From Sanguibacter gelidistatuariae (GTDB taxonomy: Bacteria; Actinomycetota; Actinomycetes; Actinomycetales; Cellulomonadaceae), in the NCBI RefSeq assembly GCF_900096585.1, contig NZ_FMYH01000012.1, positions 1-47,276 on the forward strand: 47,276 nt of DNA. The letters run 5' to 3'. Both the position numbers and the translations under genes were made by a program. The first letter of the stretch is position 1. Each line of letters opens with the position of its first letter. Under the pieces are notes generated by a model. It saw only the letters and a program-made list of their open reading frames with translations, was not told where the DNA came from and searched no databases. This document shows positions 685 to 43,829 of the stretch, one piece after another.

Positions 685-1731
685 TCAGGTGATTGCTGGT
701 CGTAGGGCGTGGAAGGCCTCGCGGGCGACTGCGCGTTTGAGGCAGCGGATGATGTCCTTCTTGCCCAGGCCCTGCTGAGTGCGGCGCTGCACGTAAGTTC
801 GGGTGCGTTCGTCGCAGTGCATCCGGACCAGCACGACGATGTGGAGCGCCCGGTTTGCCTGCCGGTTCCCGCTGCGGCTGAGCTGGTGGCGGTCGGTGCG
901 TCCTGAGGATGCCGGGATGGGCGCGACGCCGGCCAGCCACGCGAAGGCGGCTTCCGAGCGAAGGCGTTCGGGGTTGTCGCCGACGGTGATCAGGAGCTGG
1001 GCGACGGTGTCGATGCCGAAGCCCGGACGCTCCAGAAGCGCGGGAGCGGCCTGCCTGGTCAGGTCGGTCAGGTGCCCCTCGAGCGTTGCGATTTCGGTGT
1101 TGAGGTCGTGGCATTGGCGGGCCAGCGACCTCACAGTGATCCTCACCGCGACCTCTGGGTCACTGGCACCTGATCCTGGCCTCAGGTGAGCCATCGTGGC
1201 AATCAGGGACTTACGGCTCAGTCCGCGACTTTGCTCGCGCAGACGGACCGGTCCAGAGACCAGGAGACCCCTGATCTGGTTGATCGCCTGGGTCCGCGCC
1301 TTGATCGCCGACCGGCGCGCCACGTGCAGGCAACAAATGGACTCGACAAGACCGTCCTTGCCCTTGGGCACCCCGGTGGCGCGACCAGCAGCCACGGCCC
1401 TGGCCGCGGAGTAGGCGTCGAGTGGATCGGACTTGCCTTGCAGGCGGCGGCTCTTACGGTCGGGGCGGTCGACCTCCACGACGGTCATTCCGACGCCGCG
1501 AAGATGACAGGTCAGCGCAGCCCCGTAGGACGATGTCCCCTCCACACCCGCCACCGCCACCACCCCGAACTGCTGGCACCAGGCCGACAGGGTCCGATAC
1601 CCCGTCGGGGTCGTGGGAAAGCCGTGGTCCCCCAAGCCGCGGCCCAACTCGTCGACGACGGCGACATGGTGAACATCCGCATGGGTGTCGACCCCAACAT
1701 AGACTCTGGTTCCTTCGACAATGACGGTCAT
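685..1731 (-). CDS. IS110-family transposase (DEDD type)
   Basis: The 348-residue protein starts at the ATG at 1731; the frame is open further upstream, but homologous sequence begins here. The N-terminal DEDD (RuvC-like) domain starts with YVGVDTHADVHHVAVV, has GVEGTSSYG and VEVDRPDRK, and the KSDPLDAYSAARA stretch with its conserved Asp pair. The C-terminal Transposase_20 domain has LLERPGFGIDTVAQLL, AFAWLAGVAPIPASSG and SGNRQANRALHIVV. The frame is intact and complete. IS110 enzymes act with a structured guide (bridge) RNA encoded in the element's non-coding end, here most likely the region upstream of the start codon, which is the region split by the IS3 element. The SD is weak (GGAAC about 6 bases before the start). 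Confidence 0.93.
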   Translation of the reverse strand: MTVIVEGTRVYVGVDTHADVHHVAVVDELGRGLGDHGFPTTPTGYRTLSAWCQQFGVVAVAGVEGTSSYGAALTCHLRGVGMTVVEVDRPDRKSRRLQGKSDPLDAYSAARAVAAGRATGVPKGKDGLVESICCLHVARRSAIKARTQAINQIRGLLVSGPVRLREQSRGLSRKSLIATMAHLRPGSGASDPEVAVRITVRSLARQCHDLNTEIATLEGHLTDLTRQAAPALLERPGFGIDTVAQLLITVGDNPERLRSEAAFAWLAGVAPIPASSGRTDRHQLSRSGNRQANRALHIVVLVRMHCDERTRTYVQRRTQQGLGKKDIIRCLKRAVAREAFHALRPAIT

Positions 1732-1773
1732 GGCGTGTTCCGTTCTGACGCTTGGACGAGTGAAGCCGCCAAG

Positions 1774-1809
1774 GCCGGTGCCGGACAAGACGCCGGTGCC
1801 GGACAAGAC
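1774..1809. repeat. Two tandem copies of an 18-bp unit
   Basis: The unit GCCGGTGCCGGACAAGAC occurs at 1774-1791 and is repeated exactly at 1792-1809. It lies in the non-coding stretch just upstream of the IS110 transposase start, where a guide RNA would be encoded. Its role is unknown. Confidence 0.8.
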
Positions 1810-1828
1810 AGTGACGAGTCGTGAAGCT

Positions 1829-1831
1829 AGC
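1829..1831. repeat. Target-site duplication of IS3 element, left copy
   Basis: AGC directly before the left inverted repeat, matched by AGC at 3201-3203 directly after the right one. A 3-bp duplication is normal for IS3-family elements. Confidence 0.7.
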
Positions 1832-1860
1832 TGAAGCGCCCCAGGTTTGATGCCGCTCCT
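1832..1860 (+). repeat. IS3 left inverted repeat
   Basis: The first 17 bases match the reverse complement of 3184-3200 exactly, and the following TGCCGCT also matches after two mismatches. Confidence 0.9.
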
Positions 1861-1884
1861 GTTTGAGTCCAGGAGAATGAGTTC

Positions 1885-2196
1885 ATGCCCAAGAAGATCG
1901 ATTCGGAGCTGAAGGCTCGTGCCGTGAGGTTGGTCAACGACCACCTCGGGGAGTATCAGAACGTGACTGCGGCCTCGGTCGCGGTGGCCAAGCAGTTGGG
2001 GGTGAGCCGGGAGTCGGTGCGCCGCTGGGTCGCCCAAGCCGAGGTTGATGCCGGTGGCCGTCCCGGGGTGACCAGTGAGGACCTGGCGGAGATCAAGACG
2101 CTCAAGGCCAGGGTCCGCCGCCTGGAAGAGGACAACGCGATCTTGAAGGCGGCGACGGTTTTCTTCGTCGGGGAACTCGACCCCCGCAACCGATGA
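1885..2196 (+). CDS. IS3 OrfA (helix-turn-helix, leucine zipper)
   Basis: The 103-residue protein has an N-terminal HTH of the transposase_8 type (KARAVRLVNDH ... VAKQLGVSRESVRRWV, about residues 10-55) and a C-terminal coiled coil (EIKTLKARVRRLEEDNAILK, about 70-90) ending in AATVFF, as is usual for this family. The TGA overlaps the first ATG of orfB (ATGA, 2193-2196). The G-GTT-TTC run near 2156-2164 is a plausible -1 slippage site for making the OrfAB fusion, judged by position only. SD AGGAGAATGAGTTC precedes the ATG. Confidence 0.92.
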   Translation: MPKKIDSELKARAVRLVNDHLGEYQNVTAASVAVAKQLGVSRESVRRWVAQAEVDAGGRPGVTSEDLAEIKTLKARVRRLEEDNAILKAATVFFVGELDPRNR

Positions 2197-3173
2197 TCAT
2201 GGGATTCATCGACTCCCTCCGAGCCCAGGGCCATGCGGTCGAGTCGGTCTGCAGGGTCCTGCGCGAGCAGGGCTGCCAGATCGCCGCACGAACCTACCGG
2301 GCCTGGCGCAGCGCCCGTCCTGCCGCTCGCACGATCAGCGATGCCCTGGTGGTCGAGGCGATCCGTCAGGTCGCTTGGATGACCACGACCGACGCCCAGG
2401 GTCACCGGCGCCGGGTGATGACCCCGGAGGGTCTCTACGGGCGCCGCAAGATGACCGCGCACCTGCGCCGCCAGAGCCTGGTCCCGGCGACGCCTGGGGC
2501 CGTGGATCGGGGCATGCGCCTGCTGGGGCTCTCGGGGGTGCGCCGGGACAAAGGCGTGCGCACGACCATCCCGGCCAAGGACGGGATCCGGGCCGGGGAC
2601 CTGCTGAACAGGGACTTCACCGCCACGGCACCCAACTGCGTCTGGGTCACGGACTTCACGTATGTCAGGACCTGGGCGGGGTGGACGTATGTCGCGTTCA
2701 TCATCGACGTGTTCTCACAACGGATCGTGGCCTGGCACGCCGCGACCTCGAAGGAGACCGACCTGGTCATGATCCCGCTGCGCATGGCCTTGTGGCAACG
2801 CGACCGCGAGGGCCATCCGCCCGCGCCCGGGCAGCTCATCCATCACTCCGATGCCGGTTCCCAATACACCTCGATCAAGCTCACCGAGCACCTGGCACTG
2901 GAGGACATCCGCCCCTCGATCGGGTCCGTGGGCGATGCCTATGACAATGCCTTGGCGGAGACGATCAACGGGCTCTACAAGGCCGAGTGCATCCGCACCA
3001 CGATCTTCCATACCGGCCCCTAAAAGACCATCGCTGACGTCGAGTACGCCACAGCCGGGTGGGTCGACTGGTACAACAACCGGCGCCTGCACGGCACCTT
3101 GGGCAACGTCCCGCCCGTCGAGTACGAGCACGCCCACTACGCTTCACTCACAGAGCAGTTTCAACCCGCATAG
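2193..3173 (+). pseudogene. IS3 OrfB integrase, interrupted by an in-frame TAA
   Basis: The frame starts at 2193, overlapping orfA. It carries the HTH_21 segment and the rve integrase core: VWVTDFTYV (first Asp), HHSDAGSQYTS (second Asp) and DNALAETINGLYKAE (Glu). After TIFHTGP a TAA at 3021-3023 stops translation at 276 residues. Beyond it the same frame continues with KTIADVEYATAGWVDWYNNRRLHG and the normal family ending to TAG at 3171-3173, so the ancestral protein was 326 residues. The DDE triad is upstream of the stop, but the conserved C-terminal segment is lost. A sequencing error at 3021-3023 is an alternative. Confidence 0.88.
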
Positions 3174-7853: not shown

Positions 7854-9065
7854 TCAGACGGCGTTCGCGTCGAGCACAGAGAAGCGCGGGTCCAGGCGGA
7901 TGAATCCGCGTGCCCGGCCGTCCCCGTCGACCGAGAACTGCCCGGCCTCGGGTACACGGTGCAACTCGGTTCCGTCGGCGAGGGTGAGCCCGACCTGCAC
8001 GGAGTAGTCCCCCTCGCCCAGGTGCTGCTTCGGGACGAACACGTTGTACTTGTTGACCGAACCCAGCGGTGGGACCTGCGCCTCGAGCATCTTGGTGTTG
8101 GTCGCGTAGACCACGACGCCGAGCGGGTTGGCGATGCCGATCTCGATGATGCAGTCCGGCAGTGTCCGTTCGGACTCGATCTGCATGGCGATGAACAGTC
8201 CCTCACCCCCGGTCAGGACCGGGTGCCCAGTCTGCCCGGACTCCGAGGCGAGTGCGATACCGGTGAACTGGGCCCGGGGGAGTGCGCGCCCGGGGTCGAT
8301 GACCTCGAGGGCACGCTCGCGCTCCTCTTGGCGGGCTTCTTCGAAGTCGGCCCGCAGCAAGCGCAGGGCGGTACGTGGGCTGCCGTCCGTGACGATGTGG
8401 CCCTTCTCGAGGACCACGGCCCGGTCGCAGAACTCGGCCACCTGATCGAGCCCGTGGGTGACGAGGACGATCGTGCGGCCTTCGGACTGGAACTGACGGA
8501 TGCGCTCGAGGCACTTTCGCTGGAACGGTTCGTCTCCGACGGCGAGGACCTCGTCGACGAGGAGGATGTCTGGGTCGACGTGCACCGCGACCGAGAAGGC
8601 CAGCCGGACGTACATGCCCGAGGAATAGAACTTCACCTGGGTGTCGATGAACTTCTCGATCCCGGAGAAGTCGACGATCGCGTCGAAGTACTTGTCGATC
8701 TGGACGCGGCTGAGGCCGAGGATCGAGGCGTTGAGATAGACGTTCTCCCGGCCGGTGAGGTCGGGGTGGAAACCCGCGCCGAGCTCGAGGAGCGCGGCGA
8801 GCCTGCCCCGGATCTTCACACTTCCGGTGTCCGGCTGGAGGATCCCACCGATCATCTTGAGCAGCGTCGACTTGCCGGAACCGTTGGGGCCGATCAGGCC
8901 GACGGTCGTGCCGGACGAGATCTCTAGGTTGATGTCCCGAAGCGCCCAGAACTCCTCTTTGTGGAGTTTGGAGCGGCTGAAGTTGACGACGCGTTCCTTG
9001 AGCGACTTCTCCTTGCGGATGACGAAGTGCTTCGAGAGGTCCTCGATCTGTACGACGGTGGTCAT
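7854..9065 (-). CDS. wzt: Wzt-type ABC transporter ATPase with C-terminal substrate domain
   Basis: The start is ATG at 9065 (SD AGGAG; TGATG overlap with wzm). Of 403 residues, the ATPase has Walker A GPNGSGKST (59-67), signature YSSGMYVRLAFSV (147-159), Walker B DILLVDEVLAVGD (about 166-178) and H-loop His204. Residues ~250-403 form an added domain (DCIIEIGIANPLGVVVYATN ... YNVFVPKQHLGEGDYSVQVG) like the Wzt C-terminal carbohydrate-binding domains, which in E. coli O9a recognise the capped end of the chain before export. Plain Wzt/RgpD/TagH-like exporters lack it. It powers export of the finished polysaccharide through Wzm. The domain implies a terminal modification, which the 38812-42882 fusion could make. 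Confidence 0.94.
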   Translation of the reverse strand: MTTVVQIEDLSKHFVIRKEKSLKERVVNFSRSKLHKEEFWALRDINLEISSGTTVGLIGPNGSGKSTLLKMIGGILQPDTGSVKIRGRLAALLELGAGFHPDLTGRENVYLNASILGLSRVQIDKYFDAIVDFSGIEKFIDTQVKFYSSGMYVRLAFSVAVHVDPDILLVDEVLAVGDEPFQRKCLERIRQFQSEGRTIVLVTHGLDQVAEFCDRAVVLEKGHIVTDGSPRTALRLLRADFEEARQEERERALEVIDPGRALPRAQFTGIALASESGQTGHPVLTGGEGLFIAMQIESERTLPDCIIEIGIANPLGVVVYATNTKMLEAQVPPLGSVNKYNVFVPKQHLGEGDYSVQVGLTLADGTELHRVPEAGQFSVDGDGRARGFIRLDPRFSVLDANAV

Positions 9066-9970
9066 CACAGCTCCTGAGCGAAGTTGGCTTGCAGGCGGGC
9101 GAAGACACGCTGGCACAGCCAGAGCAGGACGATACCGATGAGGATCGCGATCCCCATGCGGAAGTACAGGTGATCAGGGACCGGCTTGGCGTCGCCCGCG
9201 GTCCAGAAGGTCCTCTGGAACCCGAGCACCGCGAGCGTGATCGGGTTCGCGAGGTAGACCTCCTGGATGAGCGTGCTCTTCACATTGTCGATGAACATCG
9301 CCCAGGGGTACACGATCGGGGAGACCCAGAAGAAGATCATGACGAAGATCTCGACAAGGTACTGGATGTCGCGCAGGTAGACGTTCCAAGCACTCAGCAG
9401 CAGTGCCATCGCCGTCCCGTAGAGCACGAGGATGAGCGTTGCACCGATGAAGTATCCCCAGCGGGATCCCGTGGGGAAAGAGCCCATGGCCACCGTCGCC
9501 AGGACGAGGATCACCAGCTGGATGGCAAAGTTGAACAGCGCCGAGCCGATCGCACTCAGGGGGAAGATCTCGCGAGGGAGATAGACCTTCTTGACAAGCC
9601 CGGAGTTCGCGACGACGGACCCGGTTCCGGCACTGAGCGCCTCCGAGTAGAAGCCCCAAGCCGTCAGACCGGCATAGATGAAGATGGCAAACTCGGGAGT
9701 TTGCCGGGCCGCGCCCATGAACTTGCCGAGCGCGACGTAGTAGATGAGCAGCATCGCGAGCGGGCGGATGAGTGTCCAGACGAAGCCGAGCGCGCTGTCC
9801 TTGTACCGCGCCTTGAGCTCGCGCCTGATGAGCATGTCCAGCAGCTCACGCTGGTCGAAAATGTCCTTGATCGAGGACCACGTCCCGGACGCGAACCCGA
9901 GTCGGGGACCGGCGGTCCGCAACGGCTGTTCTGCGAGCGCTACCGCGCGGTCCTGCTGAGTGCTTGTCAT
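9065..9970 (-). CDS. wzm: Wzm-type ABC transporter permease
   Basis: The start is the ATG at 9970 with SD AGGAC six bases upstream; a GTG at 10024 is in frame but lacks an SD. The 301-residue ABC2-type permease has the family's amphipathic N-terminal region (LLDMLIRRELKARYKDSALGFVWTLIRPL), about six membrane segments, the VKKVYLPREIFPLS motif and the WVSPIVYPW segment. With Wzt it forms the inner-membrane channel that moves lipid-linked polysaccharide outward. It shares a palindromic divergent promoter with the GT2-GT4 gene at 10126. Confidence 0.95.
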   Translation of the reverse strand: MTSTQQDRAVALAEQPLRTAGPRLGFASGTWSSIKDIFDQRELLDMLIRRELKARYKDSALGFVWTLIRPLAMLLIYYVALGKFMGAARQTPEFAIFIYAGLTAWGFYSEALSAGTGSVVANSGLVKKVYLPREIFPLSAIGSALFNFAIQLVILVLATVAMGSFPTGSRWGYFIGATLILVLYGTAMALLLSAWNVYLRDIQYLVEIFVMIFFWVSPIVYPWAMFIDNVKSTLIQEVYLANPITLAVLGFQRTFWTAGDAKPVPDHLYFRMGIAILIGIVLLWLCQRVFARLQANFAQEL

Positions 9971-10068
9971 GGTGTCCTTCGCTCTCGGTGCTGCGCTCGA
10001 ACGTGCAGAGACAGCGAGAGTCACAATACAGAATGGGGCGGACCCAGGTGGGCCCCAGTTAGGATCAA

Positions 10069-10125: not shown

Positions 10126-12645
10126 GTGTCTTCGAACCCGATGGCCATCGCTGTACCCAAGGCGGGAGTCCAACCGGGAGTCGTCTCCGTCGTTCTCGTC
10201 AACTACAAGGGCGCCGAGGACACGATCACGTGCCTGAGGTACTTCGACGAGATCGATTGGCCGCGTGAGCGGTTCGAGTTGATCGTCATAGACAACGACT
10301 CCCAGGACGGCAGCGTGGACAAGATCCGCGCTGCTGTGCCGGGCGCGATCGTCGTCGACGCAGGGTCGAACACGGGGTTCGCCGGAGGCTGCAACCTCGG
10401 TGTCGCTCACGCCAAGGGCGAGTACGTCGCGTTCATCAACAACGATGCGCGGCCCGACGCGGGCTGGATCCGCGCGGCCGTCGATGCCTTCGAGTCCGAC
10501 GCGACGATCGGCGCGGTCGCGAGCAAGGTCCTCGACTGGTCGGGCAACCTCATCGACTACGCCGACGGGTCGCTCACCTGGTACGGCATGGGCTACAAGC
10601 GTGAGGCCGAGAAGCCCGACTCCGAGGAGTTCAACACTCCCAAGGACGTGCTCTTCGGAACCGGGGCGGCGATGTTCGTGCGCGCGGATCTCTATCGCGA
10701 GGTCGGCGGATTCGACGAGCGCTTCTTCATGTTCTACGAGGACGTCGACCTCGGCTGGCGCCTGAACATCCTCGGCTGGCGGATGCGCTACGTCCCGACG
10801 TCGCTCGCCTTCCACAAGCACCACGTCACGATGAAGAAGTTCGGCAACTTCCGCGAGACCTACCTGCTCGAGCGCAACGCGCTCATGTCGATGTACAAGA
10901 ACCTCGACGACGAGTCGCTCGCCAAGGCGCTGCCCGCCGCGATGGCGCTCGCCGTGCGGCGCTCCTTGGCGCGCACCGAGACCGACGCGACCGCCCTCGA
11001 CCTGCAGCGCTCTCCCGGCGGCGACGATGTCGGCACCCTCGAGATCCAGAAGATGGCCCTCACCGGTCCCTACGCGATCGACTACTTCACCGACAACCTC
11101 GACACCCTCATCGAGTCGCGGGCGTACCTGCAGAAGATCCGCCGCCGCGCCGACCGTGAGGTCTTCCCGCTGTTCCGGCACGCGATCGAGGCTGCCTACG
11201 CGATCGAGGGCTACAACAGTGCCCACGACGTCCTCATCAAGGCATTTGGCATCGCCGAGCACTTCACGTCCAAGAGCCGCGTACTCGTCGTCACCGGCGA
11301 GCCGCTCCTCGAGCGGATGGCTGGCCCCGCGATCCGCGCCTGGGAGATCGCCACGGCGCTCTCCGCGGAGCACGACGTCAAGCTGCTCTCGACCGCTGGT
11401 GTCAAGGTGACGAGCAAGGACTTCGAGGTCCTCTATCAGGTCGGGCCGAAGCTCGAGGCCGAGACGGACTGGGCGGACGTCATCATCTTCCAGGGCTTCC
11501 TCCTCGAGGGAGCTCCCTGGCTCAAGGAGTCCAGCAAGATCCTCGTCGCCGACGTCTACGACCCCATGCACCTCGAGCAGCTCGAGCAGGCCCGCGACCT
11601 CGGCGAGGAAGGGCGTGCCCGCTCCATCCGCGAGACCAGCCGGATCCTCAACGAGCAGCTCAAGCGCGCGGACTTCGTGCTGTGCGCCTCGGAGAAGCAG
11701 CGAGACTTCTGGCTCGGTCAGATGGCCGGACAGGGGCGGGTCAACGCCCTCGTGTACGACGAGGACAACTCCCTGGACTCCCTCATCTCGGTTGTGCCCT
11801 TCGGCATAGCCGACGAGGACCCGGTCCAGGTCAAGCACGCGATCAAGGGGACCGTCCCGGGGATTGGCGTCGACGACAAGGTCATCATCTGGGGCGGCGG
11901 CGTCTACAACTGGTTCGACCCGTTGACCCTCATCAAGGCCGTCGACCGGCTCGCGGTGCGCCACCCCGAGATCAAGCTCTACTTCATGGGGCTCAAGCAC
12001 CCCAACCCCGGGGTGCCGGACATGAAGATCGCGTGGGAGACCCAGCAGCTCTCCGAGAAGCTCGGGCTCACAGGCAAGCACGTGTTCTTCAACACCGGCT
12101 GGGTTCCCTACAACGAGCGCGCCGACTACCTCCTAGACGCCGACCTGGGCGTGTCGACGCACTTCCACCACATCGAGACGGCGTTCAGCTTCCGGACCCG
12201 GATCCTCGACTACCTGTGGTCCGGGCTGCCGATCGTGGCCACCGGTGGTGACACCTTCGGCACGCTGATCGCCGCGAACAACCTGGGCCGGGTGGTCCAG
12301 CCGGAGGACGTCGACGGACTGGAGGCCGCGCTCGAGGAGATGCTCTTCGACGACGCAGCCATCGCCGACGTCAAGGTCGCGGTCAAGGAGTTCGCCCAGG
12401 GCTACCGATGGAACAGCGTGCTCCAGCCGCTCATCGAGTTCTGCCGGTTCCCGCGCCGTGCACCCGACCTGGCCGTCCGGCTCGGTCGGTCCGACCAGGT
12501 CGCGCACCCGCACAGCAAGCCGCCGTGGAGCATCCGCCAGGACCTCTCCCTGCTCAAGGGTTACCTGGCTGCGGGTGGACCCAAGGAGCTCGTGCGACGC
12601 GTCACCGGACGTCTCAAGCGTCTTGTTCGGGGCACCCCGGGCTGA
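10126..12645 (+). CDS. GT2-GT4 fusion glycosyltransferase
   Basis: The GTG start is preceded by GGAGGA (10117-10122, short spacing). The 839-residue protein has an N-terminal GT2 domain (about 19-290): VVSVVLVNYKGAEDTITCL, DNDSQDGSVD, NTGFAGGCNLGVAHAKGEY, metal site INNDA (105-107) and MFYEDVDLGWR, a rhamnosyltransferase-like layout. A helical link (about 290-380) leads to a GT4/GT-B domain (about 385-780): RVLVVTGEPLLERMAGPAIR, DVYDPMHLEQ, WGGGVYNWFDPLTLIKAV, FRTRILDYLWSGLPIV. A tail with basic residues follows. One protein probably adds two sugars in sequence. It faces wzm/wzt across a shared promoter, so it likely builds the exported polymer. Base composition is regular and strongly GC3-biased. 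Confidence 0.9.
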   Translation: MSSNPMAIAVPKAGVQPGVVSVVLVNYKGAEDTITCLRYFDEIDWPRERFELIVIDNDSQDGSVDKIRAAVPGAIVVDAGSNTGFAGGCNLGVAHAKGEYVAFINNDARPDAGWIRAAVDAFESDATIGAVASKVLDWSGNLIDYADGSLTWYGMGYKREAEKPDSEEFNTPKDVLFGTGAAMFVRADLYREVGGFDERFFMFYEDVDLGWRLNILGWRMRYVPTSLAFHKHHVTMKKFGNFRETYLLERNALMSMYKNLDDESLAKALPAAMALAVRRSLARTETDATALDLQRSPGGDDVGTLEIQKMALTGPYAIDYFTDNLDTLIESRAYLQKIRRRADREVFPLFRHAIEAAYAIEGYNSAHDVLIKAFGIAEHFTSKSRVLVVTGEPLLERMAGPAIRAWEIATALSAEHDVKLLSTAGVKVTSKDFEVLYQVGPKLEAETDWADVIIFQGFLLEGAPWLKESSKILVADVYDPMHLEQLEQARDLGEEGRARSIRETSRILNEQLKRADFVLCASEKQRDFWLGQMAGQGRVNALVYDEDNSLDSLISVVPFGIADEDPVQVKHAIKGTVPGIGVDDKVIIWGGGVYNWFDPLTLIKAVDRLAVRHPEIKLYFMGLKHPNPGVPDMKIAWETQQLSEKLGLTGKHVFFNTGWVPYNERADYLLDADLGVSTHFHHIETAFSFRTRILDYLWSGLPIVATGGDTFGTLIAANNLGRVVQPEDVDGLEAALEEMLFDDAAIADVKVAVKEFAQGYRWNSVLQPLIEFCRFPRRAPDLAVRLGRSDQVAHPHSKPPWSIRQDLSLLKGYLAAGGPKELVRRVTGRLKRLVRGTPG

Positions 12646-37062: not shown

Positions 37063-37689
37063 TCAGCGTGCGGAGGCGCGCAGCGCCTCGAGGCGCGCGG
37101 TGACCTGCTCGAGCGTCGGCAGCAGACCGGTAGCGGCCGCCTCGCTCAGGCTGGGGGCCGCGAGGTCCTTCTCGGAGAGCAGGGGCGTGAGGGCCGAGCC
37201 GTCGCGGGCCGTCGTCGGCCAGTCGATGGCGACCTCGGGGTCGAGGGGGTGGATGCCGTGCTCGCGCCCGGGGGAGTAGCCCGTCGAGCACAGGTACATC
37301 ACGGTCGAGTCGTCCTCGAGCGAGAGGAAGGCGTGCCCGAGGCCTTCGCCGAGGTAGATGGCGCGGCGGTCGGTGTCGTCGAGGACCACGGAGTCCCACG
37401 CGCCGAAGGTCGGCGAGCCAACCCGGATGTCGACCACGACGTCGAGTACTGCGCCCTTGGGGCAGGTGACGTACTTGGCCTGGCCGGGAGGGGTGTCGGC
37501 GAAGTGGATCCCCCGAAGCACACCGGCCGCGGAGACCGACATGTTCGCCTGCTGCAGGTCGAGCGGGTGCCCGAGCGACTCCTCGAACTTTCCGGCCTTG
37601 AACCACTCGAGAAAGACGCCACGGGGATCTCCGAACTGCTTCGGGGTGATCTCCCAGGCTCCAGGCACAGACAGTTCGCGATACTCCAT
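37063..37689 (-). CDS. rmlC: dTDP-4-dehydrorhamnose 3,5-epimerase
   Basis: The start is the ATG at 37689, with SD GGAGA seven bases upstream. The 208-residue cupin protein begins MEYRELSVPGAWEITPKQFG and has family motifs DPRGVFLEWF, QANMSVSAAGVLRGIHF (catalytic His), KYVTCPKGAVLDVVVDIR, YLGEGLGHAFLSLEDDS and LCSTGYSPGREHGIHPLDP. It performs the double epimerisation that gives dTDP-4-keto-L-rhamnose. The C-terminal ~25 residues are an added helical tail. Divergent from rmlD. Confidence 0.96.
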   Translation of the reverse strand: MEYRELSVPGAWEITPKQFGDPRGVFLEWFKAGKFEESLGHPLDLQQANMSVSAAGVLRGIHFADTPPGQAKYVTCPKGAVLDVVVDIRVGSPTFGAWDSVVLDDTDRRAIYLGEGLGHAFLSLEDDSTVMYLCSTGYSPGREHGIHPLDPEVAIDWPTTARDGSALTPLLSEKDLAAPSLSEAAATGLLPTLEQVTARLEALRASAR

Positions 37690-37824: not shown

Positions 37825-38676
37825 GTGCGCTGGTTGGTCGTTGGTGCGAATGGAATGCTCGGTCAGGATCTTGTCTCCATGCTCAAGGAGCGTGGTCAAG
37901 ACGTCGACGCAGCCGACCGCGCGGAGCTGGACATCACGGATGCGGCGAGTGCTGCTTCGGGTGTTGTGGGATACGACGTCGTGGTGAACTGCGCTGCATG
38001 GACTGCGGTGGATGATGCCGAGACCCAGGAAGGGTCCGCCTTCACGGTGAACGCCGTCGGGCCGGCGAACCTCGCCTCCGCCGCTCGCGCCGCGGGTGCT
38101 CGCTTGGTCCAGATCTCCACGGACTATGTCTTCGCCGGCGATGCATCGACCCCATACGCAGAGGATGCACCGTTCGCGCCGAAGTCCGCCTACGGCCGGA
38201 CCAAGGGCGCTGGTGAGTGGGCGGTCCGCGCCAACACCGACGACTACCTCATCGTCCGGACCGCGTGGCTGTACGGCGCGAAGGGGAACTGCTTCCCCAA
38301 GACCATGGTCAAGCTCCTCGCCGACCGCGACTCGCTCACCGTCGTCGACGACCAGGTCGGCCAGCCCACCTGGACGGTCGACCTCGCGGACCTCGTGGTT
38401 CGCTTGGTCGAGGCCGAGGCGCCGTCCGGGACCTACCACGGCACGTCGTCAGGTCAGACCTCCTGGTTCGGCTTCGCGCGCGCTTGCGTGACTGCAGCTG
38501 GATTCGACCCAGAGAGGATCGCGCCGACGACGAGCGAAGCATTCGTCCGCCCGGCGCCGCGACCGGCCTACTCTGTCCTGGCCCACGACTCGCTCACGGC
38601 CATCGGCGTCGTGCCGATCGGCGACTGGGAGGAGCGCTGGGCTTCCTCGGCACCAAGCGTGCTCTCGGTGCCCTGA
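37825..38676 (+). CDS. rmlD: dTDP-4-dehydrorhamnose reductase
   Basis: GTG start with SD GAGGGAG. The 283-residue SDR begins MRWLVVGANGMLGQDLVSML, with NCAAWTAVDDAETQEG, ISTDYVFAGDAS, YGRTKGAGEWAV (catalytic Tyr-Lys), IVRTAWLYGAKGNCFPKTMV and DDQVGQPTWTVDLADLVV. It catalyses the last step of dTDP-L-rhamnose synthesis. RmlB (4,6-dehydratase) is not in the window. Confidence 0.96.
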   Translation: MRWLVVGANGMLGQDLVSMLKERGQDVDAADRAELDITDAASAASGVVGYDVVVNCAAWTAVDDAETQEGSAFTVNAVGPANLASAARAAGARLVQISTDYVFAGDASTPYAEDAPFAPKSAYGRTKGAGEWAVRANTDDYLIVRTAWLYGAKGNCFPKTMVKLLADRDSLTVVDDQVGQPTWTVDLADLVVRLVEAEAPSGTYHGTSSGQTSWFGFARACVTAAGFDPERIAPTTSEAFVRPAPRPAYSVLAHDSLTAIGVVPIGDWEERWASSAPSVLSVP

Positions 38677-38811: not shown

Positions 38812-41800
38812 GTGAGGTCAAGTGGCGGAGAAGCCAACGATTGGACGCAACTGGCCGACGAAGGTGATCTCACTACGTCGCACGTCACGCCAGTCCGGTC
38901 GAAGGGTCGTCGGACACCAGACGGGTGCCTGCTCCTGCGGGATGCACATTCGACCTACAGTGACGGTGTAGAGGATCGGCTCTACGACCTCCTGATGGAG
39001 CAGGACGACCTGCGGTCGACCAACTCGCATCTTGCGACGCTCGCCGACGGGATGGTCGAGGAATATCACCTCGATCCTGCGCGTGCCAACATCGTCCGAG
39101 GTCTCGACATCCCGGCGGATGCACGTGTGCTGGAGATCGGTGCGGGCCTCGGAGCCGTGACGCGCTATCTGGGCGAGCGGGCTGCGGTCGTCGATGCGAT
39201 CGAGCCGTCCTTCGCTCGTGCTCGTGTCGCACGGGCTCGCACCCGCGACCTTCCAGGCGTCGAGATCCTCGTCGGCGAGCACTCTGATGTGCCCGACGAA
39301 CCGGTCTACGACGTGATCGTTGTCGTCGGCGTGCTCGAGTACACCGGTGCTGGAACGTCCAGCCCCGAGCCCTACGTGGACTTTCTTGCCAAACTGGGCC
39401 GATGCCTGCGCCCAGGGGGGACCCTCGCAGTCGCCATCGAGAACAAGATCGGGGTGAAGTACCTGGTCGGTGCGCCCGAGGACCACACCGACGTGCTCTT
39501 CGACTCGATCGAAGACTACCCGGCCGGGTCGCGGGCAAGGACATTCGCGCGGCGCGAACTGGAACAGCTCTTTGTGGCGGCTGGACTCATCCCCGAGGTG
39601 AGGATCGCCTTCCCCGACTACAAGATCACCCGCGCCGTCATGGATGCGGACGCGCTGACTGGCGAGGCGCCGGAGCTTCTGTGCTCGCTCCCGACGTTCC
39701 CGAGCCGGGATATGTACACGCAGCGGCCGCCCCTCGCCGACGAGGGACGCGTCTGGCGCACACTGGTCCAGGCGGGACTCGGCGCGGAGACGGGGAACTC
39801 CTTCCTCGTGCTGGCGGGCAAGGGAGGGCCACAGACCCTGTGGCCCGACGATCTTGCCGCCGTGTACTACTCCCAAGGGCGACGCGAGGCCTACTCCTTC
39901 GAGAAGAAGGTGCTCCGCGACGAAGACGGGTTGAAGATCGTGCGTGCTCGGATCGGTGACGCCGACGAGTCCATGGTCTTTCAGTTCACTGAGGCGACCG
40001 AACGCCTCATCCCGGGCTCCACGGTCCAGGATGCTGCTGTCGGTGCGACGGGGGTCGAGACCGTAGCCCTCCTTCAGGCGTGGCGCACTGCGTTGACCAC
40101 TCGGTTCGGTGGCCTCTCGGTGCTGCCGGTCGACCTCATCCCGGGGAACTTCATCGTTCGCGCGGACGGCAGCCTCGAATCCTTTGATCAGGAGTGGAAC
40201 GCACAGGGCTGGGAGCTTGAGCGGGTGGTGCGCCGTGGTGTTTTCTGGTTCGCCGCAAAGCTGGTCCGAGCGACACCTCGGAGCCGGTGGGCGTCCTGCA
40301 CGACGGTTCGTGACGTCATGGTCAGCCTTGGGCTAGCTGCGGACCTGGATCCGGCAGGCGAATGGATCGACTCCGCTGTTGCCGAGGAAGCAGAATTCCT
40401 AGCCGAGGTGCGACAGCTCGGCGACGGCGAGTCCATCACTGACGCCGCCGACCGCATCGCCGCCGATCTGCGGTCGCTGGTAGCGGATCAGCTCGAATCC
40501 CTGGCATTCGGTGAGCGTCTCACGGACATCCTCGACAAGGTGCGCGGCTACCTCGCGGTCTCCGAGGAGAGCGTTGCCTATCTGCTCACTGAGAAGGAAC
40601 GTCTCTCCGCAGAGAAGGACCACCTCTCCGAGTTTGCCGCCCGTGAAGAGAGCGCGAAGGACGCAGCTGTGGCATCAACGGTCCAGACCGCAGAGAAGCT
40701 CCGGTCCTCGGAGGCGCTCAAAGCGCACTTCCATGCCCAGCTCGTGGCGACCGACAGACTCGCGCAGAGCGAGCGAGCCAGGGCAGAGGCTGCTGCGTCC
40801 GAGTTGGCGGGTGTGCGGGGTTCACGTGTATACCGCGCCGTTCAGCTCTACTTCAGGGCGGTAGAGAAGGCAGCGCCAGCAGGCACTTTGCGTCGGAGGC
40901 TCTACTCAAAGTCGGGCAACGCTGCAGGGCTTGGCCTGCGGAAGCTACGACCGACCCCCATGCCAGTCGTCGCACCGATCGTGATTCCGCTCGACGCCGC
41001 GCCGCGCGTGTCCATCATCGTCCCTGTCCACGGAAAGTGGGACTACACAGAGCGGTGCCTGCGTGCGATCGCGGCGACTGCCGGCGACATCGCCTTCGAG
41101 GTGATCGTTGTAGACGATGCATCCCCGGACGAGACTGCCGAGCGACTGTCAGCCATACAAGGTGTGCACGTCGTAACGATGCCGGAGAACGTCGGATTCG
41201 TCGGAGCCTGCAACGCCGGAATCGCCGAGGCGCGCGGTGAGTTCGTAGTACTGCTCAACAACGACACCCGGGTGAACCCGTTGTGGCTCATCCCGCTCGT
41301 CGAGACACTTGAGGAGCCGGGGGTCGGCCTTGTCGGTTCCCGTCTCGTCTACCCGGACGGCCGACTCCAGGAGGCGGGTGGGATCGTCTTCTCGGACGGC
41401 TCAGGATGGAACTATGGAAAGTTCTGCGACCCCGAGGACCCTGCCTTCACCTACCGACGTGATGTCGACTATTGCTCGGGCGCGAGCATCATCATCCGCA
41501 AGTCCACGCTCGACGCGGTGGGGAATCTCGACACTCGTTTCGCTCCCGCCTACTACGATGACACCGATCTCGCCTTCTCCGTGCGCGAGTTGGGCCTTCG
41601 GGTCGTGTACGAGCCCCGATCGCTAGTGGTGCACGACGAGGGCATCTCCAACGGGACCGACGAGACCAGCGGGATCAAGGCCTACCAGGCCATCAACAAG
41701 GAGAAATTCGTCGACAAGTGGCGCCACCGCCTCGTTGATCATTGTGCACCCGATGCGGCAAACGTCCCGTTCGCAGTCCGGCGACGCAACGGCGAGCGTA

Positions 41801-42882
41801 TCGTCGTCGTGATCGATCACTATGTCCCTCGCCCGGATGAGGACTCCGGGTCGGTCCGGATGATGGGGATCCTGCGTACGTTGCGCCAACTCGGCTACTC
41901 CGTGATCTTCGTCCCGGATAACAAGTTCCGCACCGAGCCTTGGACGGGCATCCTCGGACGGATGGGTGTTGAGGTGTTCTACGGTCACGGCGACTTCCCC
42001 GGCCTGCTCCGGGACCTCGCGGAGCACATCGAGACGGTGATGGTCTCCCGGGTCACTGTCGCCTGGAACTACGCGTTCATGCTTCGCACGGTGCTTCCTG
42101 ACGTGCCGATGGTCTTCGACACTGTCGACCTGCACTACCTGCGTGAGGAACGTGCTGCTGAGCTTGCCGGACAGGACACGCTATCGCCCCGGGCACTGAC
42201 GCTGAAGTCACTCGAACTGGCGATCGCCGAGAGCGCTGACACCACCGTCGTGGTGTCAACGTTCGAGCAGGAGCTACTTGGACAGGTTCAGCCGGGCAGC
42301 GTAGTCAAGGTGCTCCCGAATGTTCACGTGCGTGAGGTCTTTTCACCGACAGTCGACGGGCGGGCGGGGCTCCTGTTCGTGGGAAGCTTCGCCCACCATC
42401 CGAACGCCGACGGTCTCCGGTGGTTGTTCAGCGAGATTTTGCCGCTGGTCGAGAAGCGTGTTCCGGGTGTTCCCGTCAAGATCGTCGGGCGCTCTCCGGA
42501 CGCGGATCTTGTAGCCTCCGCCCCGACCAATGTCGAGTTCCTCGGGTGGGTCGAAGACCTGACGCCACTGTACGACAGTGCCAGAGTGGCGCTGGCCCCG
42601 CTGCGTTACGGCGCAGGGGTCAAGGGCAAGATTGGCGAGGCGATGGTCCACGGTGTCCCCGTCGTGATGACTCCCGTCGGTGCCGAGGGTATGCAGATCA
42701 GCCATCTTCGGGACGCCTGGGTGGCGCAGGATGCACCGACGTTCGCCGCCGGGATCGTCGAGCTTCTCACCGATGACGAGATGTGGTCCTCGCTGTCAAA
42801 GATCGGCGCCGAGCACATCAACGACATCTTCGGTCCGGAGAAGTTCGCCGAGATGCTGCGCGACATCGTTTCGCGAGGCTGA
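38812..42882 (+). CDS. Methyltransferase / kinase-like / coiled-coil / GT2 / GT4 fusion, probable chain-capping polysaccharide enzyme
   Basis: The 1356-residue cytoplasmic protein has, in order: a class I methyltransferase (about 90-290, VLEIGAGLGAVTRYLGER at about 106); a region like a small-molecule or WbdD-type kinase (about 330-540), with the catalytic-loop-like DLIPGNF (D441, N446) and metal-site-like FDQEW (D459); a coiled coil (about 590-690, EKERLSAEKDHLSEF); GT2 (about 731-980, VSIIVPVHGKWDYTERCL, LLNNDTRVNP, AYYDDTDLAFS); and GT4 (about 997-1356, VVIDHYVPRPDEDSGSVRMM, LFVGSFAHHPNADGLRWL, GAGVKGKIGEAMVHGVPVVM). The methyltransferase-kinase-coiled-coil order is that of WbdD, which caps the O9a chain and sets its length. 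The domains are seen; the capping role is inference. It has its own promoter after rmlD. Confidence 0.9.
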   Translation: MRSSGGEANDWTQLADEGDLTTSHVTPVRSKGRRTPDGCLLLRDAHSTYSDGVEDRLYDLLMEQDDLRSTNSHLATLADGMVEEYHLDPARANIVRGLDIPADARVLEIGAGLGAVTRYLGERAAVVDAIEPSFARARVARARTRDLPGVEILVGEHSDVPDEPVYDVIVVVGVLEYTGAGTSSPEPYVDFLAKLGRCLRPGGTLAVAIENKIGVKYLVGAPEDHTDVLFDSIEDYPAGSRARTFARRELEQLFVAAGLIPEVRIAFPDYKITRAVMDADALTGEAPELLCSLPTFPSRDMYTQRPPLADEGRVWRTLVQAGLGAETGNSFLVLAGKGGPQTLWPDDLAAVYYSQGRREAYSFEKKVLRDEDGLKIVRARIGDADESMVFQFTEATERLIPGSTVQDAAVGATGVETVALLQAWRTALTTRFGGLSVLPVDLIPGNFIVRADGSLESFDQEWNAQGWELERVVRRGVFWFAAKLVRATPRSRWASCTTVRDVMVSLGLAADLDPAGEWIDSAVAEEAEFLAEVRQLGDGESITDAADRIAADLRSLVADQLESLAFGERLTDILDKVRGYLAVSEESVAYLLTEKERLSAEKDHLSEFAAREESAKDAAVASTVQTAEKLRSSEALKAHFHAQLVATDRLAQSERARAEAAASELAGVRGSRVYRAVQLYFRAVEKAAPAGTLRRRLYSKSGNAAGLGLRKLRPTPMPVVAPIVIPLDAAPRVSIIVPVHGKWDYTERCLRAIAATAGDIAFEVIVVDDASPDETAERLSAIQGVHVVTMPENVGFVGACNAGIAEARGEFVVLLNNDTRVNPLWLIPLVETLEEPGVGLVGSRLVYPDGRLQEAGGIVFSDGSGWNYGKFCDPEDPAFTYRRDVDYCSGASIIIRKSTLDAVGNLDTRFAPAYYDDTDLAFSVRELGLRVVYEPRSLVVHDEGISNGTDETSGIKAYQAINKEKFVDKWRHRLVDHCAPDAANVPFAVRRRNGERIVVVIDHYVPRPDEDSGSVRMMGILRTLRQLGYSVIFVPDNKFRTEPWTGILGRMGVEVFYGHGDFPGLLRDLAEHIETVMVSRVTVAWNYAFMLRTVLPDVPMVFDTVDLHYLREERAAELAGQDTLSPRALTLKSLELAIAESADTTVVVSTFEQELLGQVQPGSVVKVLPNVHVREVFSPTVDGRAGLLFVGSFAHHPNADGLRWLFSEILPLVEKRVPGVPVKIVGRSPDADLVASAPTNVEFLGWVEDLTPLYDSARVALAPLRYGAGVKGKIGEAMVHGVPVVMTPVGAEGMQISHLRDAWVAQDAPTFAAGIVELLTDDEMWSSLSKIGAEHINDIFGPEKFAEMLRDIVSRG

Positions 42883-42890
42883 TTGCTGAA

Positions 42891-42935
42891 GGACGATGGG
42901 GCTGCCATCCGATGCGGATGGCAGCCCCATCGTCC
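42891..42935. terminator. Perfect 20-bp hairpin between convergent genes
   Basis: GGACGATGGGGCTGCCATCC (42891-42910) pairs without mismatch with 42916-42935 across GATGC. It sits between the ends of the 38812 fusion gene and rmlA. There is no T-run. It is the strongest hairpin in the window and most likely a two-way terminator. Confidence 0.8.
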
Positions 42936-42962
42936 TGACGATCGGTGCTCTCAGGGAATGGA

Positions 42963-43829
42963 TCAGCTGTTCTCGAGCAGCCCGAGCAGGTACGTCCCGT
43001 ACCCGGACTTGATGAGCTTGTCAGCCCGCTCACGCAGCTCGTTGTCGCTCAGGAAGCCCTGGCGCCAAGCGAGTTCCTCCGGCGCGCCGACCTTGAGGCC
43101 TTGGCGGTGCTCGATCGTCCTGACGTAGTCCGACGCCTCGATGAGGGAGTCGAAGGTCCCGGTGTCCAGCCAGGCCGTCCCGCGGGGGAGGACCTCTACC
43201 TGCAGGCGACCCTGTTCGAGGTAGATCCGGTTCACGTCGGTGATCTCGTACTCCCCGCGCGCCGAAGGCTCGAGGTCGCGGGCGATGTGCACCACGTCGT
43301 TGTCATAGAAGTACAGCCCGGGAACTGCGAAGTTGCTCTTGGGGTTGGCAGGCTTCTCCTCGAGGGAGAGCGCGATGCCGTTCTTGTCGAACTCCACGAC
43401 CCCGTAGGAGGTCGGGTCCGCGACGCGGTAGGCGAAGACGGCGCCGCCCTCGATGTCCTTGAAGCGGGCCAGGCGCGAGCCGAGACCGGGGCCGTAGAAG
43501 ATGTTGTCGCCCAGCACGAGCGCAACCTTCTCGTCACCGATGAAGTCGGCGCCGAGCACGAACGCCTGCGCGAGCCCGTTGGGCTCGGCCTGGACGGTGT
43601 ACTCGATCGAGATGCCGAACTGGCTGCCGTCGCCTAGGAGGCGGTGGAACTGCTCGGCGTCGTGCGGGGTCGTGATGATGAGGACCTCGCGGATACCTGC
43701 CGCGATGAGGGTTGACAAGGGGTAGTAGATCATCGGCTTGTCATAGACCGGGACGAGCTGCTTGCTCACGCCGAGGGTGATCGGGTGGAGACGAGTGCCG
43801 GAGCCGCCGGCCAGGATTATTCCGCGCAT
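42963..43829 (-). CDS. rmlA: Glucose-1-phosphate thymidylyltransferase
   Basis: The 288-residue protein has the nucleotidyltransferase signature [18 protein letters not shown] at the N-terminus, then [31 protein letters not shown] and the downstream [40 protein letters not shown], all typical of RmlA. It makes dTDP-glucose, the first step to dTDP-rhamnose. Divergent genes wbbL and ugd follow to the right on opposite strands. The ATG lacks a convincing SD. Confidence 0.97.

Follow-up and report, generated by a model that had tools for sequence, protein, structure and literature searches.

P0001, a 1356-residue protein encoded in the window (the whole 47,276-nucleotide stretch of Sanguibacter gelidistatuariae DNA analysed here), probably acts as polymerase, ruler and terminator in one for a surface polysaccharide exported by an ABC transporter, like ORF6 from Klebsiella pneumoniae O7. 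A class I methyltransferase, a kinase-like domain, a long helix and GT2 and GT4 glycosyltransferases are joined in its single chain. The original prediction had proposed this arrangement for an actinobacterium, and Pfam, the open frame, an AF2 model and a homologue in Cellulomonas cellasea bear it out.

Table 1. Features of the P0001 gene and its surroundings (positions in the window; residues are those of P0001).
Feature	Position	Strand	Evidence
Gene for methyltransferase-kinase-helix-GT2-GT4 protein (P0001, 1356 aa)	38812..42882	+	Open frame and full-length C. cellasea homologue
Class I SAM-dependent methyltransferase domain, residues 40-269 (E108-x-G110-x-G112-x-G114, Y85, E131, Y177)	38929..39618	+	Pfam; offsets equal to published O7 ORF6 SAM-site residues
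Kinase-like domain, residues 300-562, no Pfam match	39709..40497	+	AF2 model and Foldseek
Catalytic-loop motif D441-L-I-P-G-N446	40132..40149	+	Conservation in 84 family members
D459-Q-E461-W462 motif, proposed metal-binding	40186..40197	+	Conservation in 84 family members
Long helical segment, residues 570-687, proposed ruler/putative coiled coil	40519..40872	+	AF2 helices
GT2 glycosyltransferase domain, residues 731-943	41002..41640	+	PF00535 E 2.1e-28 (734-885), PF13641 (731-943)
GT4 glycosyltransferase region, residues 1015-1356	41854..42879	+	PF13692 E 3.2e-25 (1187-1321)
Hairpin just past the P0001 stop codon, between two convergent genes	42890..42936	+	22-bp stem
rmlD (dTDP-4-dehydrorhamnose reductase) domain, directly upstream of P0001 gene	37831..38640	+	TIGR01214 above cut-off, PF04321
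rmlC (dTDP-4-dehydrorhamnose 3,5-epimerase)	37141..37674	-	PF00908 E 1.2e-59
rmlA-like sugar nucleotidyltransferase, directly downstream of P0001 gene	42963..43829	-	PF00483 E 6.5e-76
Wzt, ABC ATPase with Wzt_C domain	7854..9116	-	PF00005 and PF14524, both above cut-off
Wzm, ABC-2 permease partner of Wzt	9065..10024	-	PF01061

The P0001 gene is real: it is one uninterrupted open frame and has a full-length homologue in C. cellasea. Its GTG start is preceded by a GGGGAG stretch. The homologue, itself a complete frame (L052), matches P0001 at 65% over 1326 positions. Differences at codon positions 1/2/3 number 48/32/117 in the methyltransferase, 85/80/140 in the kinase, 79/77/97 in the helix, 38/30/101 in GT2 and 76/49/169 in GT4. 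Since the third position has changed most in every region and the homologue is full-length, the fusion is no assembly accident. Of the large regions, the helical segment is conserved least between the two proteins (39%), with the methyltransferase at 74% and the kinase at 55%. Beyond the stop codon, a 66-nt stretch containing the hairpin folds at -53.1 kcal/mol (z -10.5), with no T run after it.

The kinase call for the unannotated domain holds up on sequence and modelling, the predicted fold resembling solved kinases weakly. Pfam recognizes the methyltransferase (PF13489, residues 98-259), GT2 (734-885) and GT4 (1187-1321), and gives no match at E <= 1 for residues ~260-730. In protein-kinase-like folds, the catalytic Asp is followed by an Asn at +5 and a metal Asp at +18. 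P0001 has this spacing (DLIPGNF begins at residue 441 and FDQEW at 458, placing N446 at +5 and D459 at +18, 13 beyond N446), as does WbdD, whose catalytic Asp is D351. From their roles in kinase-fold enzymes, we take D441 to be catalytic and N446 and D459 to be metal ligands. All three residues and both motifs lie where they had been predicted, and they are conserved across 84 relatives (D441 in 79, N446 in 80, D459 in 79, E461 in 75, and W462 in 76). The AF2 model of residues 300-562 has a pLDDT of 93.8 and a pTM of 0.89. A Foldseek search with it supports the anticipated kinase fold in kind, 49 of the best 50 of 1818 rows being kinases or kinase-bearing lanthipeptide synthetases; the scores of these 50 are weak (best E 1.0e-3, TMq 0.24-0.36, rmsd 11-22 Å), and WbdD is not among the 50. 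Pfam, NCBIfam and PDB sequence searches do not name the domain, the sole return being choline kinase, the top PDB match of the domain profile (E 0.033, at the DxEW motif). Likewise, no kinase family occurs among 25 of the 28 families matched by 67 members.

The O7 terminator ORF6 appears to be a better relative of P0001, and the closer comparison, than WbdD. By experiment, ORF6 adds a methyl-phosphate cap, and D441A abolishes its kinase activity (JBC 2024, PMC11231755; this and all later statements on O7 and O12 follow portions of that paper). Its published residues are Y28, Y66, G91, G93, E112 and Y158 in the SAM site and the catalytic D441, and its orthologues are defined by a methyltransferase, an unannotated domain and a coiled coil. 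We judged kinship from this published numbering by way of a proxy, a plasmid protein of Pseudomonas asturiensis, not from the ORF6 sequence, which the O7 paper names as MN173773.1. The proxy matches our five-row methyltransferase-kinase profile at 28-539 (E 6.5e-81), has all six SAM-site residues at exactly the published numbers, carries D..P.N at 443, two positions off the published D441, and ends in two GT2 modules (920-1137 and 1179-1403). A Citrobacter plasmid member without a GT has the SAM residues shifted by one and the motif at 446.

Counted from G110, P0001 has Y85, G112, E131 and Y177 at the published O7 offsets; the sixth residue, O7 Y28, was paired by eye with Y49, two residues out of register. 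These offsets are widely kept among the 84 members (Y-25 in 64, G+2 in 83, E+21 in 81, and Y+67 in 61), with Y-63 in only 30. As a control, 14 other presumed methyltransferases (from at most 53 loci tried) never combine Y-25, an acidic residue at +21 and Y+67 (0/14), and have them singly in 0, 5 and 1 cases. P0001 thus shares with the O7 family a residue-level signature. It also shares with ORF6 an N-terminal methyltransferase, an unannotated kinase-like domain with a catalytic Asp (which happens to be residue 441 in both), a helical spacer and two C-terminal GTs, and both clusters hold rml genes and Wzm/Wzt. However, ORF6 has two GT2 domains and, ahead of its coiled coil, an Ig-like binding module, whereas P0001 has GT2 and GT4 and lacks the module: in its AlphaFold model, no beta domain lies between kinase and helices, the one running directly into the other. 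The portions of the O7 paper cited here do not call the module essential, and its authors know of no other terminator with one. The hosts also differ, being a gammaproteobacterium and an actinobacterium, respectively.

The P0001 gene is linked to rml genes and to an ABC exporter. Wzm and Wzt lie 30 kb away in the same window, with many other GT genes between. The PF00483 family of the rmlA-like gene also includes other sugar nucleotidyltransferases. The predicted association with a Wzt carrying a C-terminal domain was found in the window itself and elsewhere: all four frames with the P0001 domain order (window, L052, L074 and L079) are in genomes with Wzt_C. Wzm and Wzt homologues, sought with single-sequence profiles, both occur inside 26 of the 80 fetched loci; the annotation of two plasmids places an ABC permease first, then an ABC ATPase, then the terminator. 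A whole-genome exporter check covered 50 of the 80 loci (36 actinobacterial and 14 others, the latter picked for fusions). Wzt_C is present in 15/20 non-Pseudonocardiaceae actinobacterial genomes with the methyltransferase-kinase front end, versus 45/394 in a class sample, and absent from all 16 front-end-bearing genomes of Pseudonocardiaceae, assigned by tree labels (13 genomes) or by the genus Amycolatopsis (L095, L098 and L101). Export may therefore differ in this family, whose top Wzm hits score poorly (E 4.6e-14 to 5.1e-6).

The helical segment may act as a ruler. In the AlphaFold model, residues 570-619, 626-670 and 672-687 form long helices (mean pLDDT 55-84 per ten-residue block), which may assemble into a coiled coil. 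A crude heptad test saw none in P0001, and was without power because it likewise missed the WbdD stretch. An SRxWR-like motif follows the helix in the window protein, C. cellasea, L047, L056 and WbdD; its occurrence in 11/84 members, where 20 shuffles averaged 1.85, is a lead only.

We propose that the C-terminal GT2 and GT4 would lengthen a chain carried on a lipid, at least one of them probably adding rhamnose, while the long helix would keep the N-terminal active sites apart from the polymerase. Once sufficiently long, the chain would reach the kinase domain with its non-reducing end, and the last sugar would be phosphorylated, D441 serving as the catalytic residue and N446 and D459 holding metal. 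The methyltransferase would then methylate the phosphate on the terminal sugar. The C-terminal domain of Wzt would read the capped end, and Wzm/Wzt, presumably the pair in the window, would export the chain.

The original prediction had considered the N-terminal half WbdD-like, and the methyltransferase-kinase-helix order does agree with WbdD of E. coli O9a, which also shares D-x-x-P-x-N with a further Asp at +13 and partners a Wzt with a C-terminal domain (portions of PMC3482155). Kinship itself was rejected by sequence. With the E. coli HS protein as WbdD reference (phmmer to 4azs, E 0 over residues 2-556), BLASTP found no similarity to the first 720 residues of P0001 (best E 4.9). An hhalign profile comparison gave a distant methyltransferase match (probability 84.9), while the kinase matched over 44 columns at the catalytic motif (probability 9), with WbdD D351 set on D441; beyond the motif, kinase kinship was undetectable. 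Furthermore, WbdD carries no GT domain and recruits WbdA, whereas P0001 has GT2 and GT4 in its chain, and the O7 authors state that ORF6 is distinct from WbdD, with a different kinase. Together with the Foldseek result, this makes it highly improbable that P0001 is a true WbdD orthologue. Alternatively, the kinase domain could have no catalytic role and serve as a scaffold, with the end capped by simple O-methylation, as reported for WsaE of Geobacillus and WbdD of E. coli O8. None of the nearly invariant columns of the domain, R357 being one, is a Lys such as protein-kinase-like folds keep in the N-lobe, and the domain has diverged more than the methyltransferase between the full-length homologues. 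Yet the active-site D, N, D, E and W are kept in 75-80 of 84 relatives, and the loss of activity in O7 D441A argues for catalysis; we regard a scaffold as improbable.

The kinase and methyltransferase might instead decorate the inside of the repeat or a side group, which would place a phospho-methyl substituent on many repeats, with length set elsewhere. In its favour, the heptad test that also missed WbdD lent no coiled-coil support, and Pseudonocardiaceae genomes with relatives lack Wzt_C. Such internal decoration is nevertheless unlikely, given that the O7 relative caps the chain end, that Wzt_C is encoded in the same window and that it is far commoner among non-Pseudonocardiaceae actinobacteria bearing the front end than in the class sample. 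There is a modest chance that P0001 is an O7-type terminator-polymerase whose product leaves by another exporter than the window Wzm/Wzt. The 30 kb between them is compatible with this, as is contig 12 of the window genome, with a second rmlC and another Wzt_C match that falls short of the cut-off (29.9 bits). Against it, contig C30 of C. cellasea likewise carries a Wzm/Wzt_C pair ~26 kb from the P0001 homologue. An O7-type polymerase, ruler and terminator thus remains our preferred reading of P0001.

The methyltransferase-kinase front end is present in many phyla, alone or fused to differing GT modules (GT2, GT4, RgpF and WbsX). In stop-to-stop frames scored with home-made profiles, 47/84 have no GT, contig-edge loci counting as unfused. 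C. citrea (L107) has the GT2-GT4 half as a separate gene beside the terminator gene (53% over 639 aa), and so, at 28-31%, do L048, L096, L097, L112, L116 and L118. Genomes were scanned with two peptide patterns and 80 of 86 loci were kept, which is a lower bound. A2 and A3 comprise the window together with 66 of these 80 loci, with 14 (truncated, odd or near-duplicate) and L047-L049 left out; the tree holds 76 of 84 rows (8 left out) and was built by a quick method without bootstrap. A class-wide search gave matches in 6/394 genomes, among which G137 and G302 were taken as chance from the look of their proteins. In a phylum search, only G541, G495, G509 and G505, beyond the window genome, stood well above the methyltransferase background; the tally of 351/396 counts ordinary methyltransferases and was discarded. 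Among viral contigs, 102 pattern matches yielded no relatives.

Elongation, measuring and termination in one chain have already been described in Gram-negatives, since O7 ORF6 combines them, with one GT supplied separately, and Klebsiella O12 WbbB unites polymerase, ruler and terminator. WbbB differs in ending the chain with Kdo via a GT rather than by a kinase-methyltransferase. WsaE of Geobacillus stearothermophilus is the Gram-positive parallel, with a methyltransferase and two rhamnosyltransferase domains in one chain and Wzm/Wzt export, although its description, in the portions cited, mentions no kinase and gives the cap as 2-O-methylation (PMC2943079). This methyltransferase-GT-GT layout was rejected for P0001, in which the kinase-like domain is present. 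The expectation that no actinobacterial example had been described held, in that open-access full-text literature yielded no actinobacterial terminator of this kind; the one-chain design itself is not new. Apparently new are the actinobacterial members, the GT2 and GT4 pair and the missing binding module before the helix.

Enteric O antigens offer the best-understood cases of chain-length control and end-capping of surface glycans. Should actinobacteria rely on a one-chain machine of the O7 type, length control and end-capping would extend to the polysaccharides of their cell walls. More tentatively, and with somewhat less than even confidence, we suggest that the front end is a cap-and-ruler cassette found across many phyla and repeatedly joined to GT2-GT4, GT2-GT2, GT4-RgpF, WbsX-RgpF or a single GT2 or GT4, and that Gram-positive actinobacteria thereby make length-controlled, methyl-phosphate-capped cell-wall polysaccharides, those of Pseudonocardiaceae without a cap-reading Wzt. 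If so, Pseudonocardiaceae would represent a new way to couple capping with export, and these natural polymerase swaps, which pair the same cap with different helix lengths and GT modules, would allow a direct test of the ruler model.

The window protein, a product of 1356 aa, is probably a variant of the O7-type one-chain polymerase-terminator, with catalytic roles predicted from its sequence. Its frame is open over the whole span, and the gene is genuine. Pfam finds a methyltransferase (MTase) and two glycosyltransferase (GT) domains, and gives nothing at E <= 1 for residues ~260-730; the N-terminal halves of 67 relatives matched 28 families, and the 25 of these that were listed include no kinase family. 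A strong homologue of the N-terminal half was found in only one of 98 other related genomes, Cellulomonas cellasea (59%), of the same family as the window, taken to be Cellulomonadaceae. This homology spans the full length (65% over 1326 positions), with identities of 74% in the MTase, 55% in the kinase-like domain, 39% in the helix, 79% in GT2, and 70% in GT4. Changes at codon position 3 are the commonest in every one of these five regions.

Features of the window protein and its surroundings
Feature	Position	Strand	Remark
Window gene	38812-42882	+	
Class I methyltransferase	residues 98-259		PF13489, Pfam
GT2	residues 734-885		Pfam
GT4	residues 1187-1321		Pfam
rmlC	37141-37674		flanks window gene
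rmlD domain	37831-38640		flanks window gene
rmlA-like gene	42963-43829		flanks window gene
Wzt with Wzt_C, and Wzm	7854-10024		
Second GT2-GT4 two-domain protein	10126-12645	+	839 aa; adjoins wzm
IS110-type and integrase-core transposases	685-3023		left edge of polysaccharide island
Second rmlC and weak Wzt_C match	contig 12 of the window genome, 206846-216098		9 kb apart; 29.9 bits, below cut-off

The middle domain appears kinase-like in its predicted structure, yet distant from every solved structure. An AlphaFold model built from 67 rows had a pLDDT of 88.3, and the kinase part modelled alone reached 93.8 (pTM 0.89). Its modelled order (strands, two helices, strand, D441, N446, strands, D459) is what a protein-kinase-like fold would show, and these three residues lie where the original prediction numbered them. 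All but one of the 50 Foldseek matches listed (49) come from kinases or from class III lanthipeptide synthetases that contain a kinase, the exception being a pre-40S ribosome chain (6zxg_z). The domain is placed far from solved structures because these matches are weak (best E 1.0e-3; TMq 0.24-0.36; rmsd 11-22 A). When the sequence profile was compared with the PDB, a choline kinase ranked first (E 0.033), aligned at the DxEW motif. Among 84 family members (80 scanned loci, L047-L049, and the window), the residues retained are D441 in 79, N446 in 80, D459 in 79, E461 in 75, and W462 in 76.

The original prediction described the architecture well, and its comparison with E. coli WbdD was partly wrong: the residue-level likeness is instead to Klebsiella pneumoniae O7 ORF6. 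When the WbdD protein from the E. coli HS cluster, which matches PDB entry 4azs at E 0, was compared with the window protein by BLASTP, no similarity emerged (best E 4.9). Profile comparison matches the MTase alone (probability 84.9); the kinase reaches a probability of 9, though WbdD D351 aligns with D441. Sequence does not support kinship to WbdD. O7 ORF6 shares the layout of the window protein, and PMC11231755 reports its terminator activity in vitro, an inactive D441A mutant, and the residues Y28, Y66, G91, G93, E112, Y158, and D441. The likeness was judged from these published numbers, with a Pseudomonas asturiensis plasmid protein as stand-in for ORF6. This protein, found with the window MTase-kinase region (profile E 6.5e-81), numbers the first six residues identically, has D..P.N at 443, and carries two GT2 modules. 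In a second plasmid match, from Citrobacter, the residues lie one position off and the motif falls at 446; this protein lacks a GT. SAM-site offsets from the first Gly are kept by the window protein and by the majority of the 84 members (Y-25 in 64, G+2 in 83, E+21 in 81, Y+67 in 61; Y-63 in only 30), and Y-25, an acidic residue at +21, and Y+67 occur together in none of 14 other presumed methyltransferases. The first Gly and catalytic Asp are 350 residues apart in O7 ORF6 and at loci L074, L079, and L117, and 331 apart in the window protein; the shared number 441 is a coincidence. Apparently new in the window variant are the actinobacterial host, the GT2+GT4 pair, and the lack of a binding module, which O7 ORF6 has.

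Two rml genes and an rmlA-like gene flank the window gene, and the O7 cluster reported in PMC11231755 likewise holds rmlD and rmlC. This suggests rhamnose as the sugar, without assigning which GT uses it. The second GT2-GT4 protein in the window could be a polymerase partner of the exporter, and the distant rmlC and Wzt_C pair possibly marks a second exported polysaccharide.

In studied systems, capped ends are read through a Wzt_C-type domain (PMC9445017; PMC3482155). Wzt_C occurs in all four genomes with the MTase-kinase-GT2-GT4 order, so the refuting case for the original prediction, this order in a genome lacking an exporter, did not arise; front-end relatives with other tails do occur in genomes lacking Wzt_C. 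Wzm and Wzt homologues both lie within 26 of 80 loci. Wzt_C is on the same contig, outside or at the locus edge, ~26 kb from the C. cellasea gene and 10-33 kb away for L053, L115, L123, L125, and L129; for L090 it is ~580 kb away on the same contig. Among 50 genomes tested, 25 have Wzt_C (actinobacteria outside Pseudonocardiaceae 15/20, Pseudonocardiaceae 0/16, other phyla, picked for fusions, 10/14), the background in the class sample being 45/394. Wzm is matched in 47 of the 50, weakly in the 16 Pseudonocardiaceae (E 4.6e-14 to 5.1e-6), and the eight tested frames near the Lentzea gene include no exporter. The front-end relatives of these 16 genomes, L108 included, have a GT2 tail in 10. On the Citrobacter braakii plasmid pF217-3 and the P. 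asturiensis plasmid, one of which is typed conjugative, terminator, ABC exporter, and sugar genes adjoin, in the annotated order permease, ATPase, terminator.

Front ends (the MTase-kinase part) carry varied GT tails. Counted on stop-to-stop frames, 37 of 84 carry a GT and 47 none, with 19 tails checked by Pfam. The arrangements are GT2 only, downstream (14), GT2-GT4 (4), WbsX-RgpF (4), GT4-RgpF (4), GT2-GT2 (3), single GT4 (2), and four others (1 each), with a GT solely upstream in two. Front ends of four Xanthomonas loci (L083, L088, L091, L100) are fused to WbsX and RgpF, and that of a Dyella locus (L087) to GT2 and WbsX; all five loci hold Wzm/Wzt homologues. At L049, L110, and L080, GT domains lie 5' of the MTase-kinase within one stop-to-stop frame. 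The window and C. cellasea carriers of the MTase-kinase-GT2-GT4 order and the two Pseudomonas ones fall far apart on a quick, non-bootstrapped tree of 76 of the 84 rows; the first two belong to a 15-row group with support (99*) whose remaining members, L060 excepted, are unfused. With ranks taken from submitters' titles, the tree requires 15 fused/unfused and 16 phylum label changes, some of which may be losses. Elsewhere the GT2-GT4 half is encoded on its own, by a gene close to a terminator gene: C. citrea matches at 53% over 639 aa, and L048, L096, L097, L112, L116, and L118 match at 28-31%. The broader picture is of a putative cap-and-ruler front end combined with many polymerases, a more interesting result than the window protein itself.
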